From: an uncultured Halieaceae bacterium
Lineage (GTDB): Bacteria; Pseudomonadota; Gammaproteobacteria; Pseudomonadales; Halieaceae
Length of the DNA stretch: 39,993 nt
Assembly: GCA_913057135.1 (NCBI GenBank)
Contig: CAJXNM010000026.1
Span: 1 to 39,993, forward strand
Reading direction: 5' to 3'
Below, one piece after another: positions 20,619 through 39,993 of the stretch. The number at the start of each line of letters is the position of its first letter. Position 1 is the first letter of the stretch. The notes under the pieces are model-generated. The model worked only from the letters and a program-made list of their open reading frames with translations, was not told the DNA's origin and did not search any database. The position numbers and the translations under genes are program-made.

Positions 20619-20694
20619 TGTTGTAGCAAGTTTCCAAACTGTAGCCGGTTTGCGGGTAAAATCCTGCCAACTAACAATGTCACAGGAGTCGACA

Positions 20695-21408: not shown

Positions 21409-21536
21409 CGGTAAGCCCGGGCGGCGTTTTAGGCACCGCCATTCCCATGACATCTTGAGCCGAGTGAGGTTGAGGTGGCCGCGGGGAAAAGCCAGAGCCA
21501 GTCAGAACAATAACAGGCCAACCACAGGGGGCAGCA

Positions 21537-24500
21537 ATGTCAGCATGGCAGCGACCTTGGCATGACCACATTGACGGCGCTAAATCGGTTGCCGAAGCCG
21601 AGCGGGTAAGCGCTCTTCGTGAGCGCGCCATGCTCGATGCTGACGCTCGAGCAGCCATTGGACGCCGGGCGGTCCGCTGGGTGGAACAGATTCGTGCGCG
21701 ACACGATGCCGGCCTCATGGAGATATTCCTAGCGGAGTATGGGCTCTCTACCGAAGAGGGCATTGCACTTATGTCCCTGGCCGAGGCCCTGCTGCGGGTA
21801 CCGGATGCGGCCACCATCGACGCACTGATCGAGGACAAAATTGCCCATGGTGATTGGCAGCGCCACCTAGGACGATCCCCATCGACCTTGGTGAATACCG
21901 CATCGATTGGTTTGTTGATCACGGGACGTTTACTCGACGATGGCGCCCCTGCCCGCAGTGCCGCAGGCCTGCGCAAGTTGGTTAAACGTTTGGGCCAGCC
22001 TGCGATTCGCACCGCGGTCGCAGCAGCCATGGCGCAGATGGGGCGCCAATTCGTTTTGGGCGAGACCATCACTGGGGCTATGACTCGGGCCAAACACTAC
22101 GAGCAGCGCGGTTATACCTTTTCCTATGACATGTTGGGAGAAGCGGCAAGGACCGCAGAGGCGGCTCATGCCTATCGTAAAGCCTACGAACTAGCCATTG
22201 AGGCAATTGCAGGGCGCTGCCAAGCTTCGGTGCCCTTCCATGACAACCCCGGTATTTCCATCAAATTATCGGCCCTGCATCCGCGTTATGAGGAGGCTCA
22301 ACGGGAGCGCTGTATGCGCGAGTTGGTGCCCACGGTGCTCGATCTGGCCCTGCGTGCTCGCGCTGCCAATATGGGTTTATCGATTGACGCCGAAGAGCAG
22401 GATCGTTTGTCGCTCTCCCTCGATATCATCGCTGCTGTACTGAGTGACCCGCGTTTGGCGGGCTGGGATGGGTTTGGTGTGGTGGTACAAGCCTATGGCC
22501 TGCGCGCTGACCATGTCATCGACGAGCTGTATGCCCTCGCCACTCAATTCGATCGTCGATTAGCGGTGCGACTCGTCAAGGGCGCGTACTGGGATGCCGA
22601 AGTTAAGTTAGCGCAAGTGGAGGGGTTACAACACTTCCCCGTCTTCACCCGCAAAGCCGCTACCGACATTAGCTATTTAGCCAATTGTCGTACGCTACTT
22701 AATTACCGGGATCGACTATATCCCCAGTTTGCTACCCACAACGCCCACACGGTGGCGAGTATCCTGCACATGGCCGATGGCAGTCGCGACTTTGAGTTCC
22801 AGCGCCTGCACGGTATGGGTGAGAGTTTGTATGCCCTTTTGCATGACGAGTTTGCCGGTGAAGAGGCGCTGCGCTGCCGAGTTTATGCGCCAGTGGGGCA
22901 GCACGAGGATCTGCTGGCCTATCTTGTGCGTCGGCTGCTTGAGAACGGTGCTAATTCCAGCTTCGTCAATCAAATGGTTGACCCGACTATCCCGCCAGAG
23001 ACCGTCGTTGCTGATCCCTATGAGCAACTCGATTTTGGGCATCATTTGTCCTCGGGCAGCCAGCTTTATGGTCAGTATCGACGTAACGCTCGAGGTTTCG
23101 ATCTGACCGATCGAGCACTGTTGGCATGGCTGGAGCAGAATCGAGCATCGTTTCGCAGTCACCAATGGCTAGCACAGCCCCTGTTGGCTGCGACACCGGT
23201 CGACGACCTTCTGGGATGCGGTGAGCGAGCTGTTTATAACCCCGCGCGTAGGGATGAGCGAGTGGGCTTGGTGAGAGAGGCCAATGCCCAAATAGCCCAA
23301 CAGGCGGTGGCGGCTGCCAGGCCCTGGAAGTTGACTGCATCGGAGCGTTCTGATGTGCTCAATAAGGTGGCGGATCGTTACGAGGCGCGAGCAGGTGAAA
23401 TCTTCGCCCTGCTGACCTTAGAGGCCGGAAAAACAATACCCGATGCGGTGGCCGAGCTACGCGAGGCGGTGGATTTTTTGCGCTATTACGCGGCGCAAGC
23501 GGCGGATCTAAGCAGTGAACAAGAGGCGCTGGGTACGATTGTATGCATTAGTCCATGGAACTTCCCGCTGGCTATTTTCACGGGACAGATTGCGGCGGCA
23601 TTGGCCGCTGGCAATGCGGTGATTGCCAAACCCGCAGAGCAAACCGCATTAATCGGCCAGTTGGCCATTGAGTGTTGCTTTGATGCGGGTGTACCGAGAA
23701 CGGCTCTACAGTACGTGCCGGGCACGGGTGCCGACGTGGGTGCGGCACTGTCGGCTGCCGCTTCGGTGGCTGGGGTTGCCTTTACCGGGTCCACCGCGAC
23801 GGCACGTCGTATTCAACACACCATGGCAGACAATCTAAAACCCGGCGCGGTGTTTATTGCCGAGACCGGTGGTCTCAACGCCATGATTGTCGACAGCACC
23901 GCGCTACCAGAACAGGCGGTCGTTGCCGTGATGGAAAGTGCGTTCCAATCCGCCGGCCAGCGTTGCTCGGCGCTGCGTTGTTTGTATGTGCAAGACGATA
24001 TCGCCGATGACTTTATTGCCATGCTTAAGGGTGCCATGGATGAGTGGACGGTGGGTGATCCTTGGTCTTTGGCGACTGATTGTGGGCCTGTTATTGATGA
24101 CGCGGCTCAAGCAAAAATTCTTGAGCACATTGCAGTCGCCGAGCAACAAGGTCGGCTACTGCACCAGGTGCCGGTGCCCGAGTGCGGTTATTTTGTGCCC
24201 CCTTCGGTACTGGCGCTGGGTTCGATTAACGAGTTGGCGGAAGAAGTGTTTGGTCCGGTGCTGCATCTGTGTCGCTTCAAAGCCGATCAGTTGCAGCAGG
24301 TCGTGACTGACATTAACGCATCGGGTTATGGTCTTACCTTCGGTGTGCAAACCCGTATTACTCGCCGTGCGGCATGGTTAGCCGAGAAGGTTCACGTTGG
24401 CAATGTATACATCAATCGCAATCAGGTAGGCGCCATCGTGGGGTGTCAGCCCTTTGGCGGCGAGGGTCTCTCGGGCACTGGCCCTAAAGCTGGCGGCCCC

Positions 24501-24935
24501 CATTATTTGCCCCGTTTTACAAAGGCTAGGGCAAGCCGCGTTATCGCTACCGAGTTTGAAATGGCGGGCCCAACCGGTGAAACCAATACCCTGCGCTTGG
24601 TGTCTAGGGCGCCGGTATTTTGCTGTGGCCCGGGCGCAGACTTGGCGCAGCAACAGGCCAATCGTGTGCGGCAGCTTGGCGGCTCAGCCGTAGTACTCGA
24701 CACCCCCCCTGAACCCGAGGCGCTCACCGGCGCTAATGGAATATCCGCTGTTCTTTGGTGGGGTGATGAGGATCGAGGTAGGGCCTATGCCCGTGCGCTT
24801 GCCCAGCGCGAGGGCGCTATCGTACCGCTTATTTGTGGCGAGCCCGATGTGGCCCATGTCTGCCATGAGCGCCATATTTGCGAGGACACAACAGCATCGG
24901 GTGGCAATGCCACGCTGTTGGCTGGAAGTGCTTAG
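21537..24935 (+). CDS. putA: bifunctional proline dehydrogenase / glutamate-semialdehyde dehydrogenase, type B
   Basis: A 1132-residue fusion that oxidises proline to glutamate in two channelled steps. The FAD-dependent proline dehydrogenase barrel spans about 170-480, with VRLVKGAYWDAEVK (344-357) and RLHGMGE. The NAD+-linked aldehyde dehydrogenase part has ISPWNFPLAIF (671-681), general base E776 in AETGG and nucleophile C810 in SAGQRCSALR. There is no N-terminal ribbon-helix-helix domain, so it is not an autorepressor. A divergent C-terminal ALDH-superfamily domain follows residue ~1000 and ends ASGGNATLLA. That combination defines type B PutA. GGGGG lies seven bases before the ATG. It is monocistronic; the regulator is not adjacent. 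Confidence 0.96.
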   Translation: MSAWQRPWHDHIDGAKSVAEAERVSALRERAMLDADARAAIGRRAVRWVEQIRARHDAGLMEIFLAEYGLSTEEGIALMSLAEALLRVPDAATIDALIEDKIAHGDWQRHLGRSPSTLVNTASIGLLITGRLLDDGAPARSAAGLRKLVKRLGQPAIRTAVAAAMAQMGRQFVLGETITGAMTRAKHYEQRGYTFSYDMLGEAARTAEAAHAYRKAYELAIEAIAGRCQASVPFHDNPGISIKLSALHPRYEEAQRERCMRELVPTVLDLALRARAANMGLSIDAEEQDRLSLSLDIIAAVLSDPRLAGWDGFGVVVQAYGLRADHVIDELYALATQFDRRLAVRLVKGAYWDAEVKLAQVEGLQHFPVFTRKAATDISYLANCRTLLNYRDRLYPQFATHNAHTVASILHMADGSRDFEFQRLHGMGESLYALLHDEFAGEEALRCRVYAPVGQHEDLLAYLVRRLLENGANSSFVNQMVDPTIPPETVVADPYEQLDFGHHLSSGSQLYGQYRRNARGFDLTDRALLAWLEQNRASFRSHQWLAQPLLAATPVDDLLGCGERAVYNPARRDERVGLVREANAQIAQQAVAAARPWKLTASERSDVLNKVADRYEARAGEIFALLTLEAGKTIPDAVAELREAVDFLRYYAAQAADLSSEQEALGTIVCISPWNFPLAIFTGQIAAALAAGNAVIAKPAEQTALIGQLAIECCFDAGVPRTALQYVPGTGADVGAALSAAASVAGVAFTGSTATARRIQHTMADNLKPGAVFIAETGGLNAMIVDSTALPEQAVVAVMESAFQSAGQRCSALRCLYVQDDIADDFIAMLKGAMDEWTVGDPWSLATDCGPVIDDAAQAKILEHIAVAEQQGRLLHQVPVPECGYFVPPSVLALGSINELAEEVFGPVLHLCRFKADQLQQVVTDINASGYGLTFGVQTRITRRAAWLAEKVHVGNVYINRNQVGAIVGCQPFGGEGLSGTGPKAGGPHYLPRFTKARASRVIATEFEMAGPTGETNTLRLVSRAPVFCCGPGADLAQQQANRVRQLGGSAVVLDTPPEPEALTGANGISAVLWWGDEDRGRAYARALAQREGAIVPLICGEPDVAHVCHERHICEDTTASGGNATLLAGSA

Positions 24936-26627: not shown

Positions 26628-26789
26628 GTTGGCACCCTAACTCAGAGTTCTGACCCATGCTAGCGGGCTAAGTGGCGCTGACAATAGCGACCATAAGTGA
26701 ATTTGACCTGAAACTGGGACCATGACCTTCTTAAATACAGAGTGTCGCGGTACCTTTGGCAGCACTTAAAATACACACAGGGGGAAGCT

Positions 26790-28529
26790 GTGAGCAACAA
26801 GATCAAGGTCGACAAACCACTCGTTATCCTGCACGGAGACGAAATGGCACAAATCGCGTTCGAGCGCATTCTCGAGCAATTTGTGACATCGCGACTCGAC
26901 ATCGACCTGATCGAGGTGGACTTATCGGCGGAAACCCGTTTTCTTAGCAATGGCAAGGTGGTAACCGAGGCCATTGATGCGCTTAAAACCCATGGTGTCG
27001 GTGTCAAGAATGCAGGCATGACGGTTAATCGGGCGCAGCTCGATGAGCTATTGTCGAAACACCCTCACGTCGTCGAGGCCGAGCTCGATAAGCTGGCCAC
27101 TAAATCCCCCAATGGTGCTATCCGTAAAGGTATTGCGGGCAACATCACCCGGGAAGATATTGAATTCCGCAACCTCACCAGTGTCCGGCCTGACTGGATT
27201 AATCGCGATATTGAAGTCGATACCATGGAAACCGGTGGCCTTGATTTCAGTTACAGCGAGCTCTCTAACGCCACCGGTGTGGCCAAGGTGATGTTTGTGG
27301 GTAGCAGCGGCGATCCGGTTGAGTTACACCGGCGCACCTTGGTGAAAGGCGACCCTTGGATGTTGGCCACTAACAGCATCGAGGACGTTCAGGCCTGGGC
27401 GCATCGCTTCTTCCAGCGGGCCATCGATGAGCAGCGTGACATTTACCTGGGCTTGAAAGATACGGTGGTGCCCGGCTACGACGGTGTTATGCGAGCGGCC
27501 ATTGAGGAGATTTACCACAGCCACTATCAGGCACAGGTTGAAGCCGCCGGGTTGCGCTATCACTACGAGCTGATCGACGCTCAAGCTGCGCGTATCGTCG
27601 CGAATCCACCCGAGCGCGCACTGTGGGGTGTGCCTGACAATGTCACTGGCATGAAGCTCTATAAACTAGTGCAGCAATTGAAGCGCTACGGACTGCCCGA
27701 GCGCAAAGCGCATGTGTCGATTTCGCGCATGAGTGCCGGTGGCGGTGATCAGTACGGCAGTTACAACACCCCCGCGCCGGAAGACGGCATCATCAAGGTA
27801 CTGGTTGATGGCGAGGAAAAACACGCCCGATTTGTGAGTGCTAACGACCCCATTCTATTCATGTCGAACGACCGCGAATCCATTAAAGACTGGGTGACGC
27901 AGGTGTTTAAAGACGCGGCGGCGAACAAGAAAGAAGTGTACTTTGGGCTCAAGCGCGAGTTCGTTCAGTACGATGAGGTGTACAGCTCCATTATTCTAGA
28001 GATTCGCCAGGAGCTGGCGGCCCTCGATACGCCGCCTCCGTCGTTCATGATTATGCGACCCTCGCGGCAGCTGAGTAAGATGATCTGCGATCCACCGCGC
28101 TGGGGTCTTTACCCCGCTCAGAACCTCGATGGCGACATCTTCTCTGATATCTCTGCGGCGTTGGGCGGCAGCCTAGCCACCGCCAGCTCGGTTATTATGA
28201 GTAAAGACGGCACGATGCTATTTGAGGCACCCCACGGTACCGCCCACGATTTGTATCTGCGCTATCTTGAAACCGATGGTAAGGAAGCCAACTTCAACTC
28301 ATCGGCACTGATTTTTGCGGTTGCCAATGCACTCGAAGAGTTGGCAAACCGAGAGAGTAATGAGGCGCTGCGGGATTATGCGAAGAAATTGAAAGTGGCG
28401 CTTATCGATACGGTCGACCAAGGCATTATTACAGGCGATCTGAAAGGTAAGACGACCGATCCTGCGAGCGAGCGCATTGTCGACATGGCCGGTTTCCTCG
28501 ATGCCATTGAGGCCAACCTGGCTGCTTAA
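26790..28529 (+). CDS. type II isocitrate dehydrogenase, probably NAD+-specific, with an inserted duplicated domain
   Basis: A 579-residue cytosolic beta-decarboxylating dehydrogenase that turns isocitrate into 2-oxoglutarate and CO2. Eukaryote-like (type II) motifs are HGDEMAQIAF (15-24), KSPNGAIR (105-112), K223 in GLKDT, the metal ligands in DGDIFSD (D449, D453), and PHGTAHDLY (481-489). D487-L488 replaces the Arg-His that grips the NADP phosphate, indicating NAD+. It is ~165 residues longer than dimeric type II enzymes because of a segment around 285-445 that repeats the preceding region. From memory, the C. litoralis enzyme is a hexamer with a 163-residue extra segment and coenzyme determinants at D487/L488, which coincides with my count. 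GTG 26790 follows GGGGGA; the frame extends upstream to 26742 without support. Confidence 0.92.
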   Translation: MSNKIKVDKPLVILHGDEMAQIAFERILEQFVTSRLDIDLIEVDLSAETRFLSNGKVVTEAIDALKTHGVGVKNAGMTVNRAQLDELLSKHPHVVEAELDKLATKSPNGAIRKGIAGNITREDIEFRNLTSVRPDWINRDIEVDTMETGGLDFSYSELSNATGVAKVMFVGSSGDPVELHRRTLVKGDPWMLATNSIEDVQAWAHRFFQRAIDEQRDIYLGLKDTVVPGYDGVMRAAIEEIYHSHYQAQVEAAGLRYHYELIDAQAARIVANPPERALWGVPDNVTGMKLYKLVQQLKRYGLPERKAHVSISRMSAGGGDQYGSYNTPAPEDGIIKVLVDGEEKHARFVSANDPILFMSNDRESIKDWVTQVFKDAAANKKEVYFGLKREFVQYDEVYSSIILEIRQELAALDTPPPSFMIMRPSRQLSKMICDPPRWGLYPAQNLDGDIFSDISAALGGSLATASSVIMSKDGTMLFEAPHGTAHDLYLRYLETDGKEANFNSSALIFAVANALEELANRESNEALRDYAKKLKVALIDTVDQGIITGDLKGKTTDPASERIVDMAGFLDAIEANLAA

Positions 28530-29849: not shown

Positions 29850-30953
29850 CTAGCTGAGGACCAGGTCGGGCTCGCCCAGTAACGTCATGTCAGGTGTTAC
29901 GCCTAAGCCCGGTCCTGAGGGTGCTGTGATGCTGCCGTTAGTTCGTACAGGCGCCTGTGGGTCGAGCCTTGGATGCACATAGCTCGATAAGTCACATACG
30001 TTCATCACCAACTCTGTCGGTGTAGCGGCGGCGAGATGCAATGCTGCCGCAGTGACAATGTCGGACCCCCAGGTGTCTTCGACACACATCTTGATACCCA
30101 GCTGAACGCAGCGATCTCTTGCCTGCAGCGCCGCGGATAGGCCACCAAATTTAGAGATCTTTAAAGCGACGGCGTCAATACAATCGAGTTCGCTGGCACG
30201 CTGGAGGTCCGCCACTGACTGGGCGTTTTCGTCAATCTTCATGGCCAGTCCAGTGGCGTGCTTTACGCTGGCACATTGCTCAAGCGTGGCGCAGGGTTGC
30301 TCGAGCATAATGTCGAGATCATTAACCGCACGTCCCACCCGAATAGCGTCGAGCTTACTGGCGCCGCAGTTCCAATCGCCATAAACCAAAGGACCATCGC
30401 CCACGGCTGCGCGCACAACACGAAGACGCTCGACGTCGCTCTGCCAGTCGTTGTCTGCTCCCAATTTACATTGAAACTGTCGGATACCACTGGCATGAGC
30501 ATCAAGCGCGATCGTACGCATTAGCTCAGGATCCGTGCAGGTTATGGAGTGATAAGTGGGCAAGTTGGCACTAAACAAACCGCCCAGCAAATTGTACAAA
30601 GGTTGCCCTGCCGCTTTTGCATTAATGTCCCACAGAGCCATATCGATCGCCGATTTTGCATAACCATGACCAATAAGATACTTATTGAGCCGGTACATGA
30701 TGACTTGTACCCCAAGCGGGCTCTGGCCAATCAGCTGAGGTGCCAACTCTTTAACTACGGGTGCGACACCGTTAGCGTATGCCGGTAAGTAGTGAGGAAT
30801 GGCGCAGTACTCTCCCCAACCGTGAACATCGGAGTCAGTATCAATGCGCAACACCACGGTGGTCACTGTATCGCACGCCTTACCTTCAGACATCTGGTAT
30901 TTCAGGTGACTAGTAAGCGGTATATGCCACAGGGAAAGGCGGGTTATTTCCAT
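29850..30953 (-). CDS. enolase-superfamily enzyme, muconate-lactonizing subgroup, possible betaine epimerase
   Basis: A 367-residue TIM-barrel enzyme of the mandelate racemase/MLE type. An N-terminal capping domain covers residues 1-120. The acid/base lysines are K163 (QCK) and K265 (ALKISKFGG), and the Mg2+ ligands are D193 (GDWN), E219 (LEQP) and D241 (IDEN). The first lysine of the usual K-x-K is Gln161. VEDTWGSDI near 291-299 resembles enzymes acting on proline-type betaines (HpbD), whose catalytic lysines I recall as K163 and K265. It may racemise or epimerise an amino-acid betaine, or catalyse a dehydration. It is the last gene of the regulator-led operon. The ATG at 30953 has GAGA upstream; the longer frame to 31052 would overlap the previous gene. 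Confidence 0.83.
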   Translation of the reverse strand: MEITRLSLWHIPLTSHLKYQMSEGKACDTVTTVVLRIDTDSDVHGWGEYCAIPHYLPAYANGVAPVVKELAPQLIGQSPLGVQVIMYRLNKYLIGHGYAKSAIDMALWDINAKAAGQPLYNLLGGLFSANLPTYHSITCTDPELMRTIALDAHASGIRQFQCKLGADNDWQSDVERLRVVRAAVGDGPLVYGDWNCGASKLDAIRVGRAVNDLDIMLEQPCATLEQCASVKHATGLAMKIDENAQSVADLQRASELDCIDAVALKISKFGGLSAALQARDRCVQLGIKMCVEDTWGSDIVTAAALHLAAATPTELVMNVCDLSSYVHPRLDPQAPVRTNGSITAPSGPGLGVTPDMTLLGEPDLVLS

Positions 30954-30984
30954 CGTTGCTGTCTCGGAGAAGGGTGCTAAGCCC

Positions 30985-31374
30985 TCAGAGTTTGCCTTCT
31001 GCTTCCAGCACTTTGCGCGCCGCACGGAAACATTCAAGGGCTTGCGGTACACCGCAGTAGATACCCACTACGTGGATAATGGCCCGGATCTCTTCAGTGC
31101 TGACACCGTTATTGATGGCACCGCGACAGTGGATTTCCCATTCATGCATCTTGCCCAATGCGCCGATCATGGCCAGGTTCATCATGCTGCGAGTTTTCAT
31201 ATCAATGGCTTCATCACCCCAACCAAAACCCCAGCACCAAGCTGTCATGGCTTCTTGAAAGGGTCGCGTAAAGTCATCGGCTGCCGCGAGATTTTTTTCC
31301 ACGTATTCAGCACCCAAGGTGGTTTTGCGTTGGGTTAATCCCTTCAGGAATAGGTCTTCGTCAAATACTGTCAT
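30985..31374 (-). CDS. carboxymuconolactone decarboxylase (PcaC/AhpD) family protein
   Basis: A 129-residue all-helical protein. The centre and end (RSMMNLAMIGALGKMHEWEIH, NNGVSTEEIRAIIHVVGIYCGVPQA) follow PcaC, which decarboxylates 4-carboxymuconolactone. The paired catalytic cysteines of AhpD peroxidases are absent, so a lyase or decarboxylase-like role is likelier than a redox one. No ring-cleavage enzymes are nearby, so a protocatechuate role is doubtful. The ATG at 31374 has AGGAGA five bases upstream; the open frame to 31461 overlaps the aldehyde dehydrogenase. It lies 35 bases after that gene and 31 bases before the enolase-superfamily gene. Confidence 0.85.
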   Translation of the reverse strand: MTVFDEDLFLKGLTQRKTTLGAEYVEKNLAAADDFTRPFQEAMTAWCWGFGWGDEAIDMKTRSMMNLAMIGALGKMHEWEIHCRGAINNGVSTEEIRAIIHVVGIYCGVPQALECFRAARKVLEAEGKL

Positions 31375-31409
31375 GGCACTCTCCTGGCGATGTGGGCGCT
31401 TTACGAGGT

Positions 31410-32867
31410 CTAGATGGATGAGGTTTTGATGGCGATATTCTTGGTTTGCACGTAATTCCACAGTGCCTCTCGCCCCTTTTCGCGACCATAACCGGATCGG
31501 CCGTAGCCCCCAAAAGGCGTTTCAACACCCCCTGCATACCATTCGTTGATAAAGACCTGGCCGGCACGAAGTTGTCGAGCTGCTCGGGTTGCTCTGTCGA
31601 GATCACGAGTAAACACACCAGCTACCAATCCGTAGGGCGTGCTGTTGGCGAGGGTAATGGCCTCTTCGTCACTGTCGAAACTGAGGACTGACAGCACGGG
31701 GCCAAATACCTCTTCACTGGCAATCGCCATATTAGGGCTAATGCCGCCCAATACTGTTGGTGCCAAAAATGCGCCGGGTCCGCCTAGTCGCTGGCCTCCG
31801 TGCACGCATTGTGCGCCTTGATTTAATGCTCTCTTCACCATATCCAATGCGCGCTGGCATTGGGCTTCGCTGACCATGGCACCCATATTTGGACCGAACT
31901 CCTTGCGTTCGATGCCGGCCCCCACCGATAAGCTACCTGCCACTCCGACGGCTCGTTCTATTAGCTCGTCGTAACGGCTATGGTGCACGATGACGCGACT
32001 CATTGCGCTGCAGACCTGGCCGGCGTTGAAGTAGATTCCCCAGCGAAGATCCGTTTCAAAGGCGTCAAGATCAGCATCACTATGGACGATAGCGGCAGAT
32101 TTGCCCCCGAGCTCGAGTACGCAGGGAACGACGTTTTGGGCGGCCGCCGTGGCAATGGCAATGCCGGTCGCCACAGAGCCCGTGAACACCAGTTGGTTAA
32201 CATCGGGGTGCGCGGACAGGGAGGCTCCCGCTTCATGACCAACACCGCAGATGACATTGATAGCACCCTTGGGCATACCAATGGCATCTGCTGCAAGCCC
32301 AAAAATACGACTACTGAGTGGCGTGAGTTCCGGGCTTTTAACCACGCAGCTATTTCCGGTAGCCAGTGCCGCCGATAGGGATCGGGCGGTCATCTCAATG
32401 GGGTAATTCCAAGGGATGATGTGAGCTGAGACCCCATAGGGTTCAAGTTCAGTGAAATCTAAATAGCCAGCGCCCAAGGGTACAGAGCGGCCCTCTACAG
32501 TGCTCGCTTGGTTGCCGTAATACTCAAAATACTGTGCTGCACCGTCAATCTCGAGTTTAGCTTCCCATAGTGGCTTGCCTTGCTCGCGAGTCAGCAGCTT
32601 AGCCAGTTCATCGCTGTGGTCCAGTAAATAGCGGCCCATAGCTTGAACTAAACGGCCACGCTCGAGTGGCCGCATTGAGCGTAGTTCCCCGTTTTGATGT
32701 TGTTGTCGCGCTGCTTGTACGGCCGCATCGACATCGCGGTGGTCGGCAAGCGTGTGTTGCCCCAGGATATCCCCTGTCGCCGGATCGATAACGTCGATGG
32801 CGCCGGCGCCTCCCGCGCACCAACGGCCAGCAATGTAGTTATGGTACACATCGCGGTGCTCAAGCAT
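31410..32867 (-). CDS. NAD(P)+-dependent aldehyde dehydrogenase, betaine-aldehyde/amino-aldehyde type
   Basis: A 485-residue aldehyde dehydrogenase. N154 lies in IPWNYP, the general base is E252 in LELGGKS, the nucleophile is C286 in NAGQVCSA, and EEVFGPVL and FGGYGRSGYGREKG follow. Overall it is like betaine-aldehyde, aminobutyraldehyde and succinate-semialdehyde dehydrogenases. It would oxidise an aldehyde released by the cluster, for example after transamination, though formaldehyde from the Rieske enzyme cannot be excluded. Its ATG lies inside the last codons of the Rieske gene (8-bp overlap), so translation is coupled. The longer frame to 32942 is therefore unlikely. Confidence 0.92.
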   Translation of the reverse strand: MLEHRDVYHNYIAGRWCAGGAGAIDVIDPATGDILGQHTLADHRDVDAAVQAARQQHQNGELRSMRPLERGRLVQAMGRYLLDHSDELAKLLTREQGKPLWEAKLEIDGAAQYFEYYGNQASTVEGRSVPLGAGYLDFTELEPYGVSAHIIPWNYPIEMTARSLSAALATGNSCVVKSPELTPLSSRIFGLAADAIGMPKGAINVICGVGHEAGASLSAHPDVNQLVFTGSVATGIAIATAAAQNVVPCVLELGGKSAAIVHSDADLDAFETDLRWGIYFNAGQVCSAMSRVIVHHSRYDELIERAVGVAGSLSVGAGIERKEFGPNMGAMVSEAQCQRALDMVKRALNQGAQCVHGGQRLGGPGAFLAPTVLGGISPNMAIASEEVFGPVLSVLSFDSDEEAITLANSTPYGLVAGVFTRDLDRATRAARQLRAGQVFINEWYAGGVETPFGGYGRSGYGREKGREALWNYVQTKNIAIKTSSI

Positions 32868-33942
32868 TGTGGGCCTCGCGTATCCACTGGTGCAAGGTAC
32901 GTATGGAGTGCTCCGAGTTAACCCCCGACTTAGGGTCGACAATAAGAGGCCCCGGCTTATAACCGCGGGATTTCATGCCGCGTTGGACCGACTCCACGAG
33001 TTTGATGTCTTCTTCCACTGTGGTGGCTCGGTCCTGCACAGCCAGGCGCCGGATCACCTCGCTGTCCCAGCCACCTTCGGTGTACCAGCCCCGCCAAACA
33101 ACCACGCGTTCGGTGTCGACAGCACGCCAGTGATAGGTGTTAAGTACGTTGCCTGGATAAACCTGAAAGCTAAACATGGGCCATAAAAACCAACTGGAGT
33201 ACTCATCCGCATGGGGTTTGCTGTGGTCGATGTCATAGGTCATGTTGTCGAGACTTTGACACTCGGTGGTGTGGCGAAGGCAATAGCCTTGGGGTTGGAT
33301 GTCGTAGGTTTCTGGCTTGATAACGCCTGTGGCGAAGGTCGGGTGATTTAGCGTGCAGTGGTAACACTCGGAATAGTTCTCAACCGATACTTTCCAATTG
33401 CAATGCTCTTCGATTTCTACCCACTCAAGGGGTTTGAGGGTTTGCCAGTTAGGTAGCCACGCCTCTAATTCTGCTCGAGCATTAGGAAACCATGTATCCA
33501 TTGGCTGCGCATCGGGATCGAGATTCACAAAAATGAATCCAACGAACGTCTCGGTGCGGACTTCATTAAGGCAAATGGCGGACTTATCAAAACCAGGCAC
33601 TGCGTGGCCATTGGGTGCTGCGCGAAGCTGGCCGGTTAGCTCATAGGTCCATGCATGATAGGGGCACACGACAACCCGAGTTGAGCCTTCACCGCTGACC
33701 AATTGATGAGCGCGATGTTGGCAGACATTGTAAAAGGTGCGAATGACATGATCGCGCCCCATTATGCAAAAGAGACTCTCTCCGGCGAGCTCGAAGGTAA
33801 AGTAGTCACCGGGGTTATTGAGTTGGCTGCAGTGGCCCGCGAATTGCCAGGTAGTTGACAACAAGCCGTCACGCTCTGCTTTGAAAAGTTCAGGGTCTGT
33901 GTAGTAACGAGGGTCTAGCGCATGGATGGGCTGCTCATTCAT
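32860..33942 (-). CDS. CntA/YeaW-like Rieske oxygenase, probable quaternary-amine N-demethylase
   Basis: A 360-residue oxygenase component. The Rieske [2Fe-2S] ligands are C74-x-H76 and C93-x2-H96. The catalytic mononuclear iron site is H195, H200 and D312, with E192 as the bridging acid in NYSECYHC. The C-terminal LVESVQRGMKSRGY...SEHSIRTLHQW closely follows E. coli YeaW and carnitine oxygenase CntA, and is unlike two-subunit ring hydroxylases. Relatives attack carnitine, gamma-butyrobetaine, stachydrine or glycine betaine. Oxidative N-demethylation (releasing formaldehyde) or C-N cleavage is expected. The required flavin/ferredoxin reductase is not in the window. The ATG overlaps the regulator stop (ATGA). 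Confidence 0.9.
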   Translation of the reverse strand: MNEQPIHALDPRYYTDPELFKAERDGLLSTTWQFAGHCSQLNNPGDYFTFELAGESLFCIMGRDHVIRTFYNVCQHRAHQLVSGEGSTRVVVCPYHAWTYELTGQLRAAPNGHAVPGFDKSAICLNEVRTETFVGFIFVNLDPDAQPMDTWFPNARAELEAWLPNWQTLKPLEWVEIEEHCNWKVSVENYSECYHCTLNHPTFATGVIKPETYDIQPQGYCLRHTTECQSLDNMTYDIDHSKPHADEYSSWFLWPMFSFQVYPGNVLNTYHWRAVDTERVVVWRGWYTEGGWDSEVIRRLAVQDRATTVEEDIKLVESVQRGMKSRGYKPGPLIVDPKSGVNSEHSIRTLHQWIREAHNA

Positions 33943-34826
33943 GACGGATCGTCCTCATACATACCCAGCTCGTGACGCCGGCGATGGAAGGCATCCACGC
34001 GCTCTACGATTTCCCCACTCGCAATCGAGATAACAAAGCTGAGCAGGGTTTCGAGAAGCGCAATGGTCGACACCGAGGATGGAAAAAATTGGGGAGTATC
34101 GACACAGACATTGAAGTGATGATGGGCGCGCAGACTAATAGGGCTGGCAGGGCTATCGGAAATTGCAATGACCGTCATGCCTTGTTGCAAAGCGATCCGA
34201 ACCGCTTCAACGACCTCGGTGCGGTAGGGTTTCATGGTCATTGCAATCAGCACATCCCGCTGGTCGGCCCACGCCAAGTCGTCCACAGCGGTTGATCCGG
34301 GCCGGGGAATAGCGTGAAACTGGGTCATTCCCGTTGCGGCAAGATGTGTGAAATTGCGCGCATTGGCATTGTGAACCCCCACACCCAGTACAAACACCTG
34401 CCTCGATTCCCATATGGCTTTTGCGGCGACTTGCAGGTCATCTGCCCTGATGTTTGCGAAGGTCTCTTCAATGTTGCGAACCGCACCGCCCACCATTTCT
34501 GCATACAGTTCGCCAATTTCGCCAGATTTTCTAATGTCTTGTAGCCATCGCGCCCGATCGGGAAAGCTGGCGGTACCTGCTCGGATGGCGTCCCGAAAGG
34601 GTGTTCTGAAATCTTCGTAGCCTTCGAACCCAATCTGCCGAGCCATGCGCACAAATGTGTTGGGTTTAACGTTGGCGGACTGGGCGATCTCTCGCACCGT
34701 GGATACACCCACATCTTGCGGATTTTCCAGCACATAACGGGCTGCCTTCTGGGTTTCAGGGGTCAGTTCGTCCCACTGATCCGACAGCTGCTGCAAAATC
34801 TGCTTTGAAACATTTGTACCATTCAT
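33939..34826 (-). CDS. RpiR-family transcriptional regulator
   Basis: A 295-residue regulator. The N-terminal helix-turn-helix domain occupies about residues 1-80 (LTPETQKAARYVLENPQDVGVSTVREIAQSANVKPNTFVRMARQIGF), and a SIS sugar-isomerase-like effector domain about 115-260 (VFVLGVGVHNANARNF, DVLIAMTMKPYRTE, VIAISDSPASPIS). RpiR proteins usually sense sugar phosphates, but some control amine or amino-acid catabolism. It heads the leftward operon, its stop overlaps the Rieske start (ATGA), and it is divergent from the FAD enzyme gene. The inverted repeat over its start codon implies autoregulation. The frame extends to 34892, but that would cover the whole divergent promoter region. Confidence 0.92.
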   Translation of the reverse strand: MNGTNVSKQILQQLSDQWDELTPETQKAARYVLENPQDVGVSTVREIAQSANVKPNTFVRMARQIGFEGYEDFRTPFRDAIRAGTASFPDRARWLQDIRKSGEIGELYAEMVGGAVRNIEETFANIRADDLQVAAKAIWESRQVFVLGVGVHNANARNFTHLAATGMTQFHAIPRPGSTAVDDLAWADQRDVLIAMTMKPYRTEVVEAVRIALQQGMTVIAISDSPASPISLRAHHHFNVCVDTPQFFPSSVSTIALLETLLSFVISIASGEIVERVDAFHRRRHELGMYEDDPS

Positions 34827-34848
34827 GGTTGACGATCGTACAAATGTT
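34809..34848. promoter_or_regulatory. inverted-repeat operator, likely RpiR-family binding site
   Basis: AACATTTGTAC (34809-34819) and GTACAAATGTT (34838-34848) are perfect 11-bp inverted copies separated by 18 bases. Half-site centres are 29 bp apart, close to three helical turns, so two regulator dimers could sit on one face. The left copy lies in codons 3-6 of the regulator gene and the right copy lies in the intergenic region, suiting control of both divergent units. Confidence 0.7.
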
Positions 34849-34858
34849 GCCCTAGCCT
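34829..34858 (+). promoter_or_regulatory. possible sigma-70 promoter for the rightward operon
   Basis: TTGACG (34829-34834) is a good -35 box. TAGCCT (34853-34858) after an 18-base spacer is a poor -10 box. The right operator arm (34838-34848) would fill the spacer, consistent with repression. The -10 is weak enough that the true promoter may differ. Confidence 0.3.
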
Positions 34859-34896
34859 GTCCACCGAAATTCGACGTTTTTGACGGGGTCAACCGT

Positions 34897-37359
34897 ATGT
34901 CTCAGAAGCAGCTGCCATCCCAAGCACGGGTCGTCATTGTGGGTGGTGGAATTATGGGTGTTGGCCTCGCCTATCACTTAGCTCATGAAGGTTGGGGCGA
35001 AGACACCATCCTTCTTGAAAAAGCGGAGCTCACCAGCGGCAGTACTTGGCACGCCGCTGGCCAAATTACCCACTCTACGTCGAGCTACAGCCTTGGGAAG
35101 TGTGTTGACTACAACATTGGATTATATGCTGGGGCATTAGAGGCGGAGACGGGTCAAGCGGTTACCTGGCACGGTTGTGGTTCGTTCAGACTAGCTTACA
35201 CCCCCGACGAGATGGATTGGTTGCGCCACACCTTAAGCGTGGGTCGAAGCTTGGGTTTTAACATCGAGTTGGTGGGCCCAGAGCGGGTGGCCGCACTGCA
35301 CCCGTTTTATAATCTTGATGGTGTCATGGGTGCGCTGCACACCCCCGATGACGGTCATGTTGATCCGACAAACGTGACTATGGCTATGGCGATTGGTGCG
35401 CGTCAGCTGGGAGTGCGCATTTTCCGGCGTTGCCGTGCTACCAACATTACCCAAGCCGAAAACGGCGAATGGTTGGTAGCGACGGAGCAGGGCACCATTC
35501 GCTGCGAACATGTAGTGAATGCGGGTGGTACATACGCCCGTCAAATGGGCGAATGGTCGGGTCTGCAACTACCCATGACTAGCATGACCCACCACTATCT
35601 CGTCACAGATGAGGTACCCGAGTTTCAACATTTAGACCGTGAGCTCCCCGTGATTCGAGATGACCGAATGGTGTCGGGTTACATTCGCATGGAGCAAAAA
35701 AAGGGGCTCATCGGGATCTATGAGAAGGCCAACCCCAATACGGTGTGGGAGGACCACTGCCCCTGGGATGCTGAAAACGAGCTGTTTAGTCCCGACTATG
35801 ATCGCATCATGCCCTGGTTGGAAAACGCCATGGAGCGTATGCCTATTTTTGCCAATCTAGGCATTGCTCAGGATTTTCACGGCGCTATTAGTCATCCGCC
35901 CGATGGCAATCCGCTCATTGGGCCCGCGCCGGGGGTTCAAAACTATTGGTGTTGTTGTGGCACTCAGATTGGCATCGGCTGGGGGCCAGGGCTGACCCGA
36001 GAGTTGGCGCGATGGATGGTTTATGGCGCCGCCGATATCTCTATGCGGGACTATGATCCTCGTCGTTTTGGCAGCTACGCTGATAAGCCATGGCAGGTTA
36101 TTAAAGCCAAAGAAGACTACTGTTTACGCCACGAAATTCCATTCCCCCATTTCAATAGGTTGGCAGGTCGACCGGTTAAGCCATCGCCCCTTTATGACGT
36201 GCTCAAGGGAAAGGGTGCCGTATTTGAAGAGGTCTACGGACACGAGCGTCCGCGATGGTTCGCCACAGGTAATATTGAGCAGCATGATCATTACTCGTTT
36301 CGCCGGAACTGCCTGCATGAGGTGGTTGCCGCCGAGTGCCGTGCGGTCCGTGAGCGCGTGGGTATCATGGATATCTCGGCCTTCACCAAGGTTGAAGTCA
36401 CCGGTCCCGATGCCGCGTTATTCCTTGAGCGGTTGGTGGCCAACCGTCTGCCAAAGAAGGTCGGGGGTACAGCACTCACTCACATGCTGAATCGTCGCGG
36501 TCGTATTGAATTAGAGACCACGGTTTTCCGGTTAGAGCACGATCGCTATTACTTAGTGTGTGCGGCCTTCTTCGAACAACGTCTTCTTGACCATCTTGCG
36601 TCTCAGCGTCGCGACGAAGACCTTGTTATTAGCTTGCGCTCCGATGAGTGGGGCGCTGTTGCGCTTAATGGACCACGGGCGCGGGATGTATTGGCCCAAT
36701 GTACCGATGCGGACTTATCCAACGCTGGTTTCCGCTGGCTCAGCGCCAAGCCAATCACCGTGGCAGGTTATTCTCTGTGGGCGTTTCGCATGTCCTATGC
36801 GGGAGAGTTAGGTTGGGAATTGCATATGCCTCGAGAGGCTATGGTGCCCGTGTATGAAGCCCTGTGGTCAGCAGGTGAGCCACTGGGTATAGCGGACTAC
36901 GGCAGCTTTGCCATGAACGTCATGCGCATGGAAAAAGGCTACAAAGGTGCCGGCGAGTTAACCAATGAAGTCACCTTACCTGAAGCTGATGTCATGCGAT
37001 TCGTGAAGCTCGACAAAGACTTTCTTGGGGCTGAGGCTACGCAAGCTAGTGTTGAGCAGTGCAATCAGGGCCTCATGCCCTGGGTCTGCAGCTACCTCGC
37101 GATTGAACCCGATGGCGAAATCGATGGTCACGGTGGTGAGGCGGTGCTATTCGATGGCGAGGTGGTGGGTAGTACAGCGTCGGTTGTTTATGGACACACT
37201 GTCGGCACAATTCTGGCCTTTGCCTATATCAAGCCGGCATTCGCAGTTCCGGGCACACATCTTGAGGTGGTTATTCATGGTCAGCCTCGCCCTGCTCAAG
37301 TCCTCGCTGAGCCAGCCTACGATCCAAAGGGTGACTTGCCTCGGGCCGATAGCGCGTGA
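34897..37359 (+). CDS. dimethylglycine/sarcosine dehydrogenase-like FAD and folate enzyme
   Basis: An 820-residue protein with the four-part dimethylglycine-dehydrogenase layout. The FAD-binding DAO domain begins at VVIVGGGIMGVG (12-23), with GSTWHAAG placing H52 as the usual covalent FAD ligand. An FAO-type middle domain is followed by a GcvT-like tetrahydrofolate domain from about 430 (RVGIMDISAFTKVEVTGPDA) and a GcvT C-terminal barrel. Such enzymes oxidise N-methyl groups of tertiary or secondary amines and pass the carbon to tetrahydrofolate. It is divergent from the Rieske operon and would suit the next demethylation steps. The ATG at 34897 follows GGGG; a frame open from 34825 would start inside the regulator gene. 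Confidence 0.9.
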   Translation: MSQKQLPSQARVVIVGGGIMGVGLAYHLAHEGWGEDTILLEKAELTSGSTWHAAGQITHSTSSYSLGKCVDYNIGLYAGALEAETGQAVTWHGCGSFRLAYTPDEMDWLRHTLSVGRSLGFNIELVGPERVAALHPFYNLDGVMGALHTPDDGHVDPTNVTMAMAIGARQLGVRIFRRCRATNITQAENGEWLVATEQGTIRCEHVVNAGGTYARQMGEWSGLQLPMTSMTHHYLVTDEVPEFQHLDRELPVIRDDRMVSGYIRMEQKKGLIGIYEKANPNTVWEDHCPWDAENELFSPDYDRIMPWLENAMERMPIFANLGIAQDFHGAISHPPDGNPLIGPAPGVQNYWCCCGTQIGIGWGPGLTRELARWMVYGAADISMRDYDPRRFGSYADKPWQVIKAKEDYCLRHEIPFPHFNRLAGRPVKPSPLYDVLKGKGAVFEEVYGHERPRWFATGNIEQHDHYSFRRNCLHEVVAAECRAVRERVGIMDISAFTKVEVTGPDAALFLERLVANRLPKKVGGTALTHMLNRRGRIELETTVFRLEHDRYYLVCAAFFEQRLLDHLASQRRDEDLVISLRSDEWGAVALNGPRARDVLAQCTDADLSNAGFRWLSAKPITVAGYSLWAFRMSYAGELGWELHMPREAMVPVYEALWSAGEPLGIADYGSFAMNVMRMEKGYKGAGELTNEVTLPEADVMRFVKLDKDFLGAEATQASVEQCNQGLMPWVCSYLAIEPDGEIDGHGGEAVLFDGEVVGSTASVVYGHTVGTILAFAYIKPAFAVPGTHLEVVIHGQPRPAQVLAEPAYDPKGDLPRADSA

Positions 37360-37421
37360 CTGTGTCTGCGCGGCATCTTCTGGTGATCGTAGGCCATTGA
37401 GGATTCGGAGGAGTCGAGTCG

Positions 37422-38708
37422 ATGGGTAAGGCAGCAGATCAGTCCACGTGGGTAAGTCGCGCTCGCCGGGTGCTGCCCGGTGGTGGCTTTGGTAATTTTG
37501 ACCCTGCGATGGTGATGGCCCGTGGTGTGGGTAGTCATATCTGGGACCAGGATGGCAATGAATACATTGACCTACTGATTGGCTCGGGACCTATGCTGCT
37601 TGGCCACAGTCACCCTGAAGTGTTGGCGGCAGTTGCTGAGCAGTTACCTCTTGGGCAGACATTTTTTGCCAATAATCCAGCGGGTATCGAACTTGCAGAA
37701 CGGATTTGCGCCACGGTACCCAGTGCAGAGCAACTCCGTTACGTGACTTCGGGGGGTGAGGCAGATATGTACGCCATCCGTCTGGCGCGTGCGTTCACTG
37801 GCCGTGATATGGTTTTGAAGTTCGAAGGTGGCTATCACGGTATGTCGGCGGAAGCCCAAATGAGCCTGGCCCCGGGGGCCTCGCAGCCATCTGACTTTCC
37901 CCATCCGATCCCTGACAGTGCCGGTATTCCTGCGAGCACCGCGAATGGTGTACTGGTAGCACCCTTTAACGACCCGGCTTATTTAGATCGGTTATTGGCT
38001 GACAACGGCCACCAGATCGCCTGTATTATTGTTGAGCCCATTCAGCGCATCGTGCCACCCGAGCCCGGTTTTCTCGGCCACTTACGTGCGCAGTGTGATC
38101 GTTATGGCATCGTTCTGATTTTTGATGAGATTGTCACTGGATATAGATTGGCACTGGGTGGTGCACAAACTCATTATGGGGTTGTGCCTGATTTGTGCAC
38201 GTTGGGTAAGGTGATTGGGGGTGGTTTCCCGCTGGCAGCGGTCGCAGGTCGGGCTGATATTTTGGCGCATTTCGACAAATCATTGGTCGGCGCCGACAAT
38301 TGGCTTATGCAGTTAGGGACGCTCTCGGGCAATCCAGTGGCTGCGGTTGCGGGCCTGAAAACCCTCGATATTCTGGAGCGTGACGGCCAGTATGCTGAGC
38401 TTCGTCGGAAAGGTGCCGCTATTTGGCGCAGTATGGATCAAGCACTATCCCAGCAAGGTATTGGGCATCAAATGGTCGGTGACGAGACCCTCTTTGAAGT
38501 TGTCTTCACTGACAAGCCACCGACAAATTACCGCGATGTGCAGGCAGGTGACAGCAAACAAGCCGCTCTCTGGAATAACGCGTTACGTGCCCATGGTATT
38601 TTTAAGTCGCCTGGCAAGGTCTATCCCAGCTTGGCGTTGACCAGTGATGATCTTGAGCAGATCGATCAGGCCGCGCAAATTGCTGCTCGCGCCGTAGCTA
38701 GCGGCTGA
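37422..38708 (+). CDS. class III aminotransferase, glutamate-1-semialdehyde aminomutase-like
   Basis: A 428-residue fold-type I PLP enzyme. Its plan is that of GSA aminomutase and omega-aminotransferases: VLPGGGFGN near the start, VTSGGEADMYAIRLARA (108-124) around the PLP phosphate, D235 in FDEIVTG and PLP lysine K263 in LGKVIGGGFP. It is unlikely to be the heme-pathway HemL given its catabolic neighbours and altered SGGEAD (SGTEA in HemL). It may transaminate a demethylated amino acid to an aldehyde or shift an amino group. GGAGGAG lies ten bases before the ATG, and it is 62 bases after the FAD enzyme in the same direction. Confidence 0.88.
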   Translation: MGKAADQSTWVSRARRVLPGGGFGNFDPAMVMARGVGSHIWDQDGNEYIDLLIGSGPMLLGHSHPEVLAAVAEQLPLGQTFFANNPAGIELAERICATVPSAEQLRYVTSGGEADMYAIRLARAFTGRDMVLKFEGGYHGMSAEAQMSLAPGASQPSDFPHPIPDSAGIPASTANGVLVAPFNDPAYLDRLLADNGHQIACIIVEPIQRIVPPEPGFLGHLRAQCDRYGIVLIFDEIVTGYRLALGGAQTHYGVVPDLCTLGKVIGGGFPLAAVAGRADILAHFDKSLVGADNWLMQLGTLSGNPVAAVAGLKTLDILERDGQYAELRRKGAAIWRSMDQALSQQGIGHQMVGDETLFEVVFTDKPPTNYRDVQAGDSKQAALWNNALRAHGIFKSPGKVYPSLALTSDDLEQIDQAAQIAARAVASG

Positions 38709-38860
38709 AGAGCTTCTCAATAAAAGTTGTTAACTGAATAACTCCAATCGATTAAACCCACTGGCGGTTGTCTGCAGAAAGTCTAAAGTGGCCGCCATAA
38801 AGGTGTTGTTGCCTTTGAGGTCACGTCGGCGCCGAAAACCCCATATCGATTGGAGCAGTC

Positions 38861-39993
38861 ATGCAGAGCTTTCAAGCCCAGTATCAAGATAAACGTATTG
38901 CACCCGAGGAGGGCCTGAATTTTGTCCCCGAGGGGGGCAACCTGATTCTGGCAATGGGGGTCGCCCAGCCTCCGGCACTGATCGAAGGTCTTGCAAAGGC
39001 ACTTAGCGAAAGCAGTCGTCCGGCGCTTCCGGTGTATTACATGCACGGCTCCCAAGCCCTGAGCGATCATCTTTTGGTGCCGTCACTGGCGGGTAAAATC
39101 ATTCCTCGGCCTTTATTTTTAAGTAAGCATGATCGAGACGGGAGCCATCATTTCGCCGACCCGCACATCCTTGAGTTTGTGCCCGCGGCATTTCACCAGG
39201 TGGGGCGACTACTCACGGAGCAAATCAATCCCGATTGCTTTATGGCCACCGTGTCACCCATGGATCGTCACGGTTACTTCAGCCTGGGCACCAACCCCGA
39301 CTATGGCGCGTCCGTCGTGCGCAAAGCCAGTAAAGTCATTGTCGAAGTCAACCCGCAGATGCCACGCACCTTTGGGGAGTGCAGCGTTCATATCTCTGAG
39401 GTTCACGGCATTATTGAAAACGATCAACCGCTCGCTGAGGTACCGGTACACGTACCCAACGCAACCGATCTCGCTATCGCTGAGCGTATCCTCGAGCACA
39501 TTAACGATGGCGATACGCTGCAGATGGGCGTCGGCGGGGTGCCGAATGCGGTACTGAATCAGCTTCATGGGCACAACGACTTGGGTTTGCACTCAGAGCT
39601 GTTCAGCCCTGCCATGGTGGATTTGATAAAACGTGGGGTCATCAATGGTCGGCGTAAATACTGGATGCAGCACCGACATGTGTTTACGTTGGCGTTGGGT
39701 AATCGTGAGTTATATGACTTTCTCGACGATAACCCGTCGGTGTTGGGTTACCCCGCGTCATGGGTCAACAACCCCATTATTATCGCTAAGAACCCCAATA
39801 TGGTGTCGGTGAATGCCGCCCTTGAAGTTGATCTTACAGGCCAGATTAACGCCGAGCAGATTGACGGAGCGCCGTTCTCGGGTACTGGGGGCCAGCTAGA
39901 TTTTGTGCGAGGTGCTTATGCTTCCCGGGGTGGTCGCTCGTTTATTGCCCTGCACGCTACCGCAAAAAATGACACTATCAGCAAAATCGTGCC
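38861..39993 (+). CDS. acetyl-CoA hydrolase/CoA-transferase family protein (3' end outside window)
   Basis: The frame is open from the ATG at 38861 (GGAG six bases upstream) to the window edge, giving 377 residues. The family is that of acetyl-CoA hydrolases, 4-hydroxybutyrate and butyryl-CoA:acetate CoA-transferases. MGVGGVPNAVL binds CoA, the catalytic glutamate is in LGLHSELFSP, and GAPFSGTGGQLDFVRGA is the C-terminal signature. The enzyme moves CoA between carboxylic acids through a glutamyl-CoA intermediate. It follows the aminotransferase after 152 bases with no obvious terminator, so it may share its transcript or have its own promoter. It could activate the acid end product of the cluster. 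Confidence 0.87.
   Translation, partial: MQSFQAQYQDKRIAPEEGLNFVPEGGNLILAMGVAQPPALIEGLAKALSESSRPALPVYYMHGSQALSDHLLVPSLAGKIIPRPLFLSKHDRDGSHHFADPHILEFVPAAFHQVGRLLTEQINPDCFMATVSPMDRHGYFSLGTNPDYGASVVRKASKVIVEVNPQMPRTFGECSVHISEVHGIIENDQPLAEVPVHVPNATDLAIAERILEHINDGDTLQMGVGGVPNAVLNQLHGHNDLGLHSELFSPAMVDLIKRGVINGRRKYWMQHRHVFTLALGNRELYDFLDDNPSVLGYPASWVNNPIIIAKNPNMVSVNAALEVDLTGQINAEQIDGAPFSGTGGQLDFVRGAYASRGGRSFIALHATAKNDTISKIV

Follow-up and report, generated by a model that had tools for sequence, protein, structure and literature searches.

The window analyzed here is an entire contig of 39,993 nucleotides (CAJXNM010000026.1) from an uncultured Halieaceae bacterium, and its right-hand part carries a conserved cassette of seven genes (29850-38708) arranged as two divergent arms. 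Outward from the middle, the left arm consists of a MurR/RpiR-family regulator (33939-34826; HTH_6 and SIS domains), a CntA-like Rieske oxygenase (32860-33942; PF00355 and PF00848), an aldehyde dehydrogenase (ALDH; 31410-32867; PF00171, 503 bits), a PcaC-like protein of the carboxymuconolactone-decarboxylase family (CMD; 30985-31374; PF02627, 67 bits), and an MLE-type enzyme of the enolase superfamily (MLE-A; 29850-30953; PF13378 and PF02746) that is likely an alpha-carbon epimerase or dehydratase, all running leftward on the minus strand. The right arm, on the plus strand, begins with a dimethylglycine-dehydrogenase-like (DMGDH-like) FAD/tetrahydrofolate protein (34897-37359), whose DAO, FAO_M, GCV_T, and GCV_T_C domains all scored over cut-off, and ends with a class III aminotransferase resembling glutamate-1-semialdehyde aminomutase (37422-38708; PF00202, 194 bits). 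Gene starts were chosen by comparison with relatives; the longest open reading frames (ORFs) of MLE-A, CMD, ALDH, RpiR, and the DMGDH-like protein begin further upstream. With the chosen starts, the left-arm genes, again from the middle outward, overlap by 4 and 8 bases and are then separated by 35 and 31 bases. A CoA-transferase gene (38861-39991, plus strand; PF13336, 126 bits), whose 3' end lies beyond the contig end, follows the aminotransferase and does not belong to the cassette. An initial annotation of this DNA had listed eight families here, with the RpiR regulator amid the enzyme genes; the ORF list and profile searches recovered all eight in the window and the regulator in that position.

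Between the divergent arms lies an inverted repeat, ACATTTGTAC-N18-GTACAAATGT (34810-34847). A genome scan with ACATTTGT-N22-ACAAATGT, allowing up to two mismatches, found this as the single exact site, and the reversed control gave 0; one two-mismatch site on contig C3, which is about what we estimate for chance, was rejected as a further operator. The sequence in this register was conserved in 76 relatives. With the register fixed, 6-8 of 10 pairs formed between the arms in 62 of these 76 and fewer in the remaining 14. When the pairing was scanned freely, 8 pairs were reached in 20 of 78 relatives compared to 44 of 1560 simple shuffles, and 6-7 pairs in 55 of 78 compared to 1182 of 1560. Therefore, the sequence is conserved, the palindrome exceeds chance only weakly in these relatives, and the left arm of the repeat overlaps the first RpiR codons and is coding. 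We regard the repeat as a candidate, and the probable, RpiR operator.

Conservation and spread of the gene set

A contig scan with the DMGDH-like protein gave at least 589 confirmed relatives, and we analyzed the best 80 loci, in which this protein was 74-81% identical. All of them are titled either as Alphaproteobacteria or under genera of that class. Matches of >50% identity to the window's proteins were found for the Rieske protein and RpiR in 78 loci each, MLE in 72 (two of them, in L010 and L080, short pieces), the aminotransferase in 68, and CMD in 62; several loci end inside the cassette. Gene clustering placed DMGDH in all 80 loci, Rieske in 76, RpiR in 74, an MLE family in 73 (156 copies), the aminotransferase in 68, CMD in 62, an MDR gene in 54, DddQ in 41 (48 copies), and ALDH in 25. 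The initial annotation had staked its reading on a conserved neighborhood in related genomes, and the genes indeed kept each other's company in most of the 80 loci. Because this neighborhood is conserved in relatives, we regard the cassette as beyond chance.

The recurring layout was RpiR-Rieske-(ALDH)-CMD divergent from DMGDH-(...)-MLE-aminotransferase, from which the window departs in that MLE ends its left arm. Accessory families included one weakly similar to arylmalonate decarboxylase (f9; 24.4 bits, cut-off 25.9) and a Sulfotransfer_5 protein (f10). By eye, one Roseovarius cassette (L072) continues after its aminotransferase with an MttB-like gene and another DMGDH-like gene (20239-22436).

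Copies were also present on plasmids. Plasmid records held 6 DMGDH matches at E <=1e-200, 4 of them >60% identical, and three plasmids were inspected. The Roseovarius sp. THAF8 plasmid carries the cassette with an ABC operon after it. On the Mesorhizobium sp. 131-2-5 plasmid, the cassette has another MLE type, which also ends the left arm but is only 35% identical to that of the window. Behind this cassette lie ETF genes and a ferredoxin-reductase-like gene, whose products would be fitting electron partners for DMGDH- and Rieske-type enzymes. The copy on the Ruegeria SCSIO 43209 plasmid has no annotated RpiR or ALDH.

Among 36 other genomes of the genus, many of them incomplete, this DMGDH-like type was found in G006 only (70% identical), and other matches at E <=1e-150 had 49% identity or less. 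The 16S rRNA of G006 is 85.6% identical to that of Escherichia coli, which by the usual yardstick for such identities suggests Gammaproteobacteria; a 16S rRNA search found none in the window's genome (G000) or in a control genome (G058). In G006, as in the window, the cassette lies near idh; this copy includes an MDR gene and has MLE enzymes of all three types (A, B, and C), and the inspected stretch showed no DddQ. After the CMD gene of G006 come a flavoprotein weakly similar to SoxB (84.5 bits against a cut-off of 529) and another Rieske protein (L099, 17047-19710).

In a quick, arbitrarily rooted tree of 82 DMGDH-like proteins, the window sequence branched off first within a group of 70 rows (SH-aLRT 95), the other 69 of which were alphaproteobacterial and mostly Rhodobacterales. 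The G006 protein sat on a long branch outside this group. When proteins were ranked one by one against the window, with the DMGDH row excluded, MLE was the only one for which G006 took first place, and G006 ranked low for the aminotransferase, RpiR, Rieske, and ALDH. Together, the tree placement and these ranks point to separate acquisition of the window and G006 cassettes by horizontal transfer.

The idh gene itself (26742-28529 in the window; L099, L149, L150, and L151 elsewhere) resembles an insertion hotspot in the genus. Five of seven genomes were compared: near idh lay the cassette in G006, a 33% DMGDH relative in G024, a 28% Rieske relative in G035, and a 32% porin relative in G015, and none of cassette, DMGDH, Rieske, or porin relatives in G030.

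Enzyme resemblances and proposed pathway

Domain searches and nearest solved structures agreed with the enzyme identities given in the initial annotation, as resemblances. Because no core protein reached the cut-off of its best NCBIfam model, we use these names in that sense only. The nearest solved structure to the Rieske protein was carnitine monooxygenase CntA (207 bits; residues 12-358 of 360 aligned), and the NCBIfam equivalog GbcA (NF058607) gave 151 bits against a cut-off of 670. Its Cys/His ligands, mononuclear iron ligands, and bridging Glu, which we presume to have their usual roles, were present in the window and, per site, in 74-76 of 76 relatives. The DMGDH-like protein was nearest to dimethylglycine dehydrogenase (526 bits), with the FAD-linked His found in 79 of 80 relatives and a gap in the remaining one. 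Among solved structures, the aminotransferase matched glutamate-1-semialdehyde aminomutases best (286 bits); D-phenylglycine and beta-transaminases ranked lower. Its pyridoxal phosphate Lys was found in 68 of 68 relatives.

For MLE-A, the nearest solved structures were 4mgg (268 bits) and then 2rdx, 2qdd, 4e8g, and 2pmq/4h2h (223 to 183 bits); here and elsewhere, the functions matched to PDB entries are those we presume. Against the hydroxyproline dehydratase model, it scored 330 bits, below the cut-off of 500. Lysines K163 and K265, metal ligands D193, E218, and D241, and Y55 were found in all 65 type-A relatives and W295 in 64, and position 293 was Asp in 28 and Cys in 37. The same Tyr and Trp are present in the aligned HpbD-type sequences 2pmq and 4e8g, where we take them to bind betaine, and the roles of the other MLE residues are likewise assumed. 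MLE types B (52 sequences) and C (32) differ from A, with Gly at the W295 position in all 52 of type B. A single-sequence structure prediction of the MLE reached a mean pLDDT of 42, and the model was not used. Overall, the near-invariant catalytic residues support these proteins being active enzymes, without indicating a particular substrate.

We lean, with a little more than even confidence, toward the cassette being an inducible, horizontally exchanged gene set for the catabolism of an N-methylated, betaine-like carboxylic acid that is not glycine betaine, because most of the 80 loci, G006, and two alphaproteobacterial plasmids combine a CntA-like Rieske and a DMGDH-like protein with an aminotransferase and an MLE enzyme. 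The substrate or an early product would bind RpiR, opening both arms. The Rieske enzyme would then remove the first N-methyl group as formaldehyde, drawing electrons from a reductase encoded elsewhere, for which a GbcB on contig C6 is a candidate that may be shared, and the DMGDH-like enzyme would pass on the other methyl groups, with tetrahydrofolate as acceptor. The MLE enzyme might epimerize or dehydrate at the carbon adjoining the carboxylate, the aminotransferase would convert the freed amine to a carbonyl, and ALDH would oxidize that carbonyl product, with CMD acting late, perhaps as a decarboxylase. We infer that N-demethylation, transamination, and oxidation make up the best-supported scheme. 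To that extent, the route proposed in the initial annotation (demethylation, transamination, and aldehyde oxidation) stands, as inference. We dropped its closing CoA-ester step: a CoA-transferase >50% identical was found in none of the 80 loci, any match at all was found in one (31% identical), and there was none in the compared 40 kb of the G006 copy. Contig C85 begins with the last 25 residues of the CoA-transferase on this contig, and its further ORFs are, by eye, other kinds of gene, including a sulfotransferase-like gene adjoining a class IV aminotransferase-like gene (L138, 3953-5526).

Several points weigh against this N-methylated-acid reading. Besides the unreached NCBIfam cut-offs, no established substrate or activity appears to stand behind any cassette member, and simple N-demethylation offers no evident role for CMD or MLE. 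ALDH was >50% identical in 27 of the 80 loci, some of these being short pieces. The 80 loci are nearest relatives, rich in Ruegeria, and non-independent. No Rieske reductase was found among the window genes or in the named families common to at least 5 of the 80 loci (rarer genes being unannotated). No transporter was consistently linked either; the ABC operon from THAF8 was considered as a dedicated transporter and rejected, its binding protein being matched in 0 of 80 loci.

As a substrate, glycine betaine itself is unlikely. Contig C6 carries a GbcA-like protein (486 bits, cut-off 670), GbcB (633 bits, cut-off 500), and SoxB and SoxA over their cut-offs, and therefore a separate glycine-betaine-type cluster exists in the same genome. 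Other genes in the C6 stretch 35500-51500 (L131) encode an ALDH, an old-yellow-type oxidoreductase, and a DHDPS-family protein, and the C6 cluster is possibly a proline- or hydroxyproline-betaine route.

We also think it unlikely that the cassette is a variant of a known betaine route, for carnitine, gamma-butyrobetaine, proline betaine, or hydroxyproline betaine. Such a variant would agree with the closeness of the Rieske protein to carnitine monooxygenase and with the grouping of MLE-A with hydroxyproline dehydratase/epimerase and betaine epimerase. In addition, the window holds a betaine/carnitine/choline (BCCT) transporter (16935-18473) and a PutA proline dehydrogenase (21537-24935) at a distance of 9-16 kb from the cassette, as would be fitting if the route ended in proline. 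However, BCCT was >=40% identical in 1 of the 80 loci and PutA in none, so both were rejected as cassette members, and MLE-A fell short of the hydroxyproline dehydratase model. Moreover, an aminotransferase beside an MLE is, as we understand it, unexpected for proline betaine, and the old-yellow-type oxidoreductase, GbcA-like Rieske, and DHDPS-family protein of C6 would suit such a route better.

A cyclic N-methylpyridinium acid such as homarine or trigonelline could give MLE, CMD, ALDH, and the glutamate-semialdehyde-like aminotransferase a more natural use. The Rieske enzyme would attack the ring, the resulting open chain would be handled by MLE, CMD, and ALDH, and an N-methylamino acid, e.g., N-methylglutamate, would be demethylated by the DMGDH-like enzyme. 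A homarine operon of ~6 genes has reportedly been described for marine bacteria. Still, this substrate seems quite unlikely to us, given that ring attack had no support in our analysis, that the best solved relative of the Rieske protein acts on an open-chain betaine, and that literature listings on homarine catabolism turned up no paper with this set of genes. An acid without N-methyl groups, with the families having moved to other substrates, would be in line with no family cut-off being reached and with the general readiness of Rieske and MLE families to switch substrate. Yet two separate N-methyl-acting families and an aminotransferase occur together in most loci, and we hold this alternative to be extremely improbable.

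If the N-methylated-acid reading is true, the cassette would encode a pathway for a methylated nitrogen compound that is common to many marine Alphaproteobacteria, the window's lineage, and a rhizobial plasmid, and it would be testable in culturable Roseobacters.

DddQ in related cassettes

In our judgment, the part most worth pursuing is the tie to DddQ, which matters more than the cassette itself. DddQ is a lyase of dimethylsulfoniopropionate (DMSP) that produces dimethyl sulfide (DMS), a climate gas. Its gene lay inside the cassette in 41 of the 80 loci, with two adjacent copies in Roseovarius nubinhibens ISM (L074), and 39 loci, some of them truncated, showed none. One cupin-family member (L033) gave a full-length match (439 bits) to the solved DddQ of Ruegeria lacuscaerulensis, and the two members tested scored 65 and 75 bits for Pfam DMSP_lyase, above the cut-off of 27. 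A DddQ query that matched G058 and G059 had no match in the window's genome.

Pair tests were run on the 66 loci having aminotransferase, Rieske, and DMGDH. Among the 37 with DddQ, the MDR gene was found in 35 and MLE type B in 34, compared to 10 and 11 of the 29 without it (Fisher p of 3e-7 for MDR and 3e-6 for MLE type B, relatedness uncorrected). By eye, two accessory MLE proteins of R. nubinhibens (L074, 16254-17360 and 17381-18484) appear identical to 2rdx and 2qdd across the aligned stretches; both structures are labeled only as putative MLE enzymes.

In a broader sample of 295 genomes from the family of L033, DddQ (E <=1e-20) was found in 45 genomes, cassette-type DMGDH (E <=1e-290) in 47, and both in 23. 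DddQ lay within 10 kb of cassette-type DMGDH in 17 of the 45 DddQ-bearing genomes (21 of 54 DddQ sites); the 28 genomes without that linkage count against a link between DddQ and the cassette. Of 18 further DddQ regions from 16 genomes, 7 had a cassette-type gene >50% identical nearby, one of these being a fragment on a short contig. The other 11 had none, and their DddQ homologues were 32-52% identical to the query; going by ORF starts only, with no family search, these 11 regions had no shared context (L108 with 0 ORFs and L109 with one).

The dddQ genes of R. pomeroyi and R. nubinhibens are linked to an MDR028 gene, and the MDR gene of R. nubinhibens failed to correct acrylate sensitivity (PMC3338564). 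The Km of DddQ for DMSP is 22 mM, dddQ is induced by DMSP, and dddQ mutants produced 97% less DMS in R. pomeroyi and 20% less in R. nubinhibens (PMC5395565). In other studies, dddP and dddQ were up 1-4 fold with DMSP (PMC4437653), dddQ ranged from 0.83 to 1.87 in listed conditions (PMC9769926), and DddQ was among enzymes 2-83-fold more efficient with dimethylsulfoxonium propionate (DMSOP) (PMC10686828). Where checked in the dddQ literature, "racemase" meant the superfamily of the algal lyase Alma.

These results bear on whether the cassette serves sulfonium compounds (DMSP/DMSOP), with DddQ as the lyase and the other enzymes handling onium compounds or downstream acids. The presence of DddQ in about half of the loci, the 97% loss of DMS and the DMSP induction, and the greater efficiency with DMSOP would all fit. 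Even so, we consider it very unlikely, as the core is kept in the window's genome, which had no DddQ match, and in the G006 copy, where none was seen, and 39 loci show no DddQ gene. The failure of the neighboring MDR gene to correct acrylate sensitivity and the high Km also speak against it, and DMGDH-like enzymes are generally known to act on amines.

A different idea, which we hold only tentatively and regard as rather doubtful, is that the native home of DddQ is a cassette for N-methylated-amine catabolism rather than DMSP catabolism, with DMSP cleavage and DMS being partly a side activity and with DddQ and the extra MLEs processing nitrogen analogues of DMSP. These enzymes would abstract an alpha proton and expel a beta-placed ammonium, or otherwise process such analogues. 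Candidate substrates would be beta-ammonio-propionates, e.g., beta-alanine betaine, or hydroxymethyl-trimethyl-beta-alanine, which forms the headgroup of betaine lipids in algae. We rated this idea slightly lower because of the R. pomeroyi mutant and the 28 unlinked genomes. The affinity of DddQ for DMSP is poor and its induction by DMSP modest. Its gene company shows where to seek another substrate, and this would bear on metagenome-based counts of DMS-producing potential.

Comparison with known systems

The initial annotation had called this gene set undescribed, and we found no description of the cassette in the portions of the open-access literature searched. That label needs one correction, as the MDR gene next to dddQ in Roseobacters is already in print (PMC3338564). 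At the dddQ locus of R. nubinhibens, we see the cassette with two DddQ genes, an MDR gene, and four MLE genes, whereas the window has neither dddQ nor MDR, and the text consulted names only dddQ and the MDR gene.

In the glycine-betaine route of gbcAB, dgcAB, and soxBDAG (PMC12093977), an N-methylated acid is likewise attacked first by a Rieske enzyme and then demethylated by flavoproteins. By contrast, the cassette has a CntA-like Rieske protein without its own reductase and one DMGDH-like protein, plus MLE, aminotransferase, ALDH, CMD, and RpiR. Carnitine monooxygenase CntAB, which turns carnitine into trimethylamine plus malic semialdehyde, shares the bridging Glu of CntA, the nearest solved structure, with the cassette Rieske protein, but the window's cassette has no reductase gene. 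Judged by sequence, the DMGDH-like protein agrees with dimethylglycine dehydrogenase in its DAO, FAO_M, and GCV_T/GCV_T_C domains and its FAD-linked His.

In alignments, MLE-A shares its lysines, metal ligands, Tyr, and Trp with HpbD, the hydroxyproline- and proline-betaine epimerases, and Labrenzia LhpJ. LhpJ, a cis-3-hydroxyproline dehydratase, is described as both 2-epimerase and dehydratase of cis-3-hydroxy-L-proline (PMC5144071). MLE-A differs from these enzymes in its lower score for the dehydratase model and in its gene company. Set beside these systems, the cassette is a new combination of known enzyme types, real and conserved.

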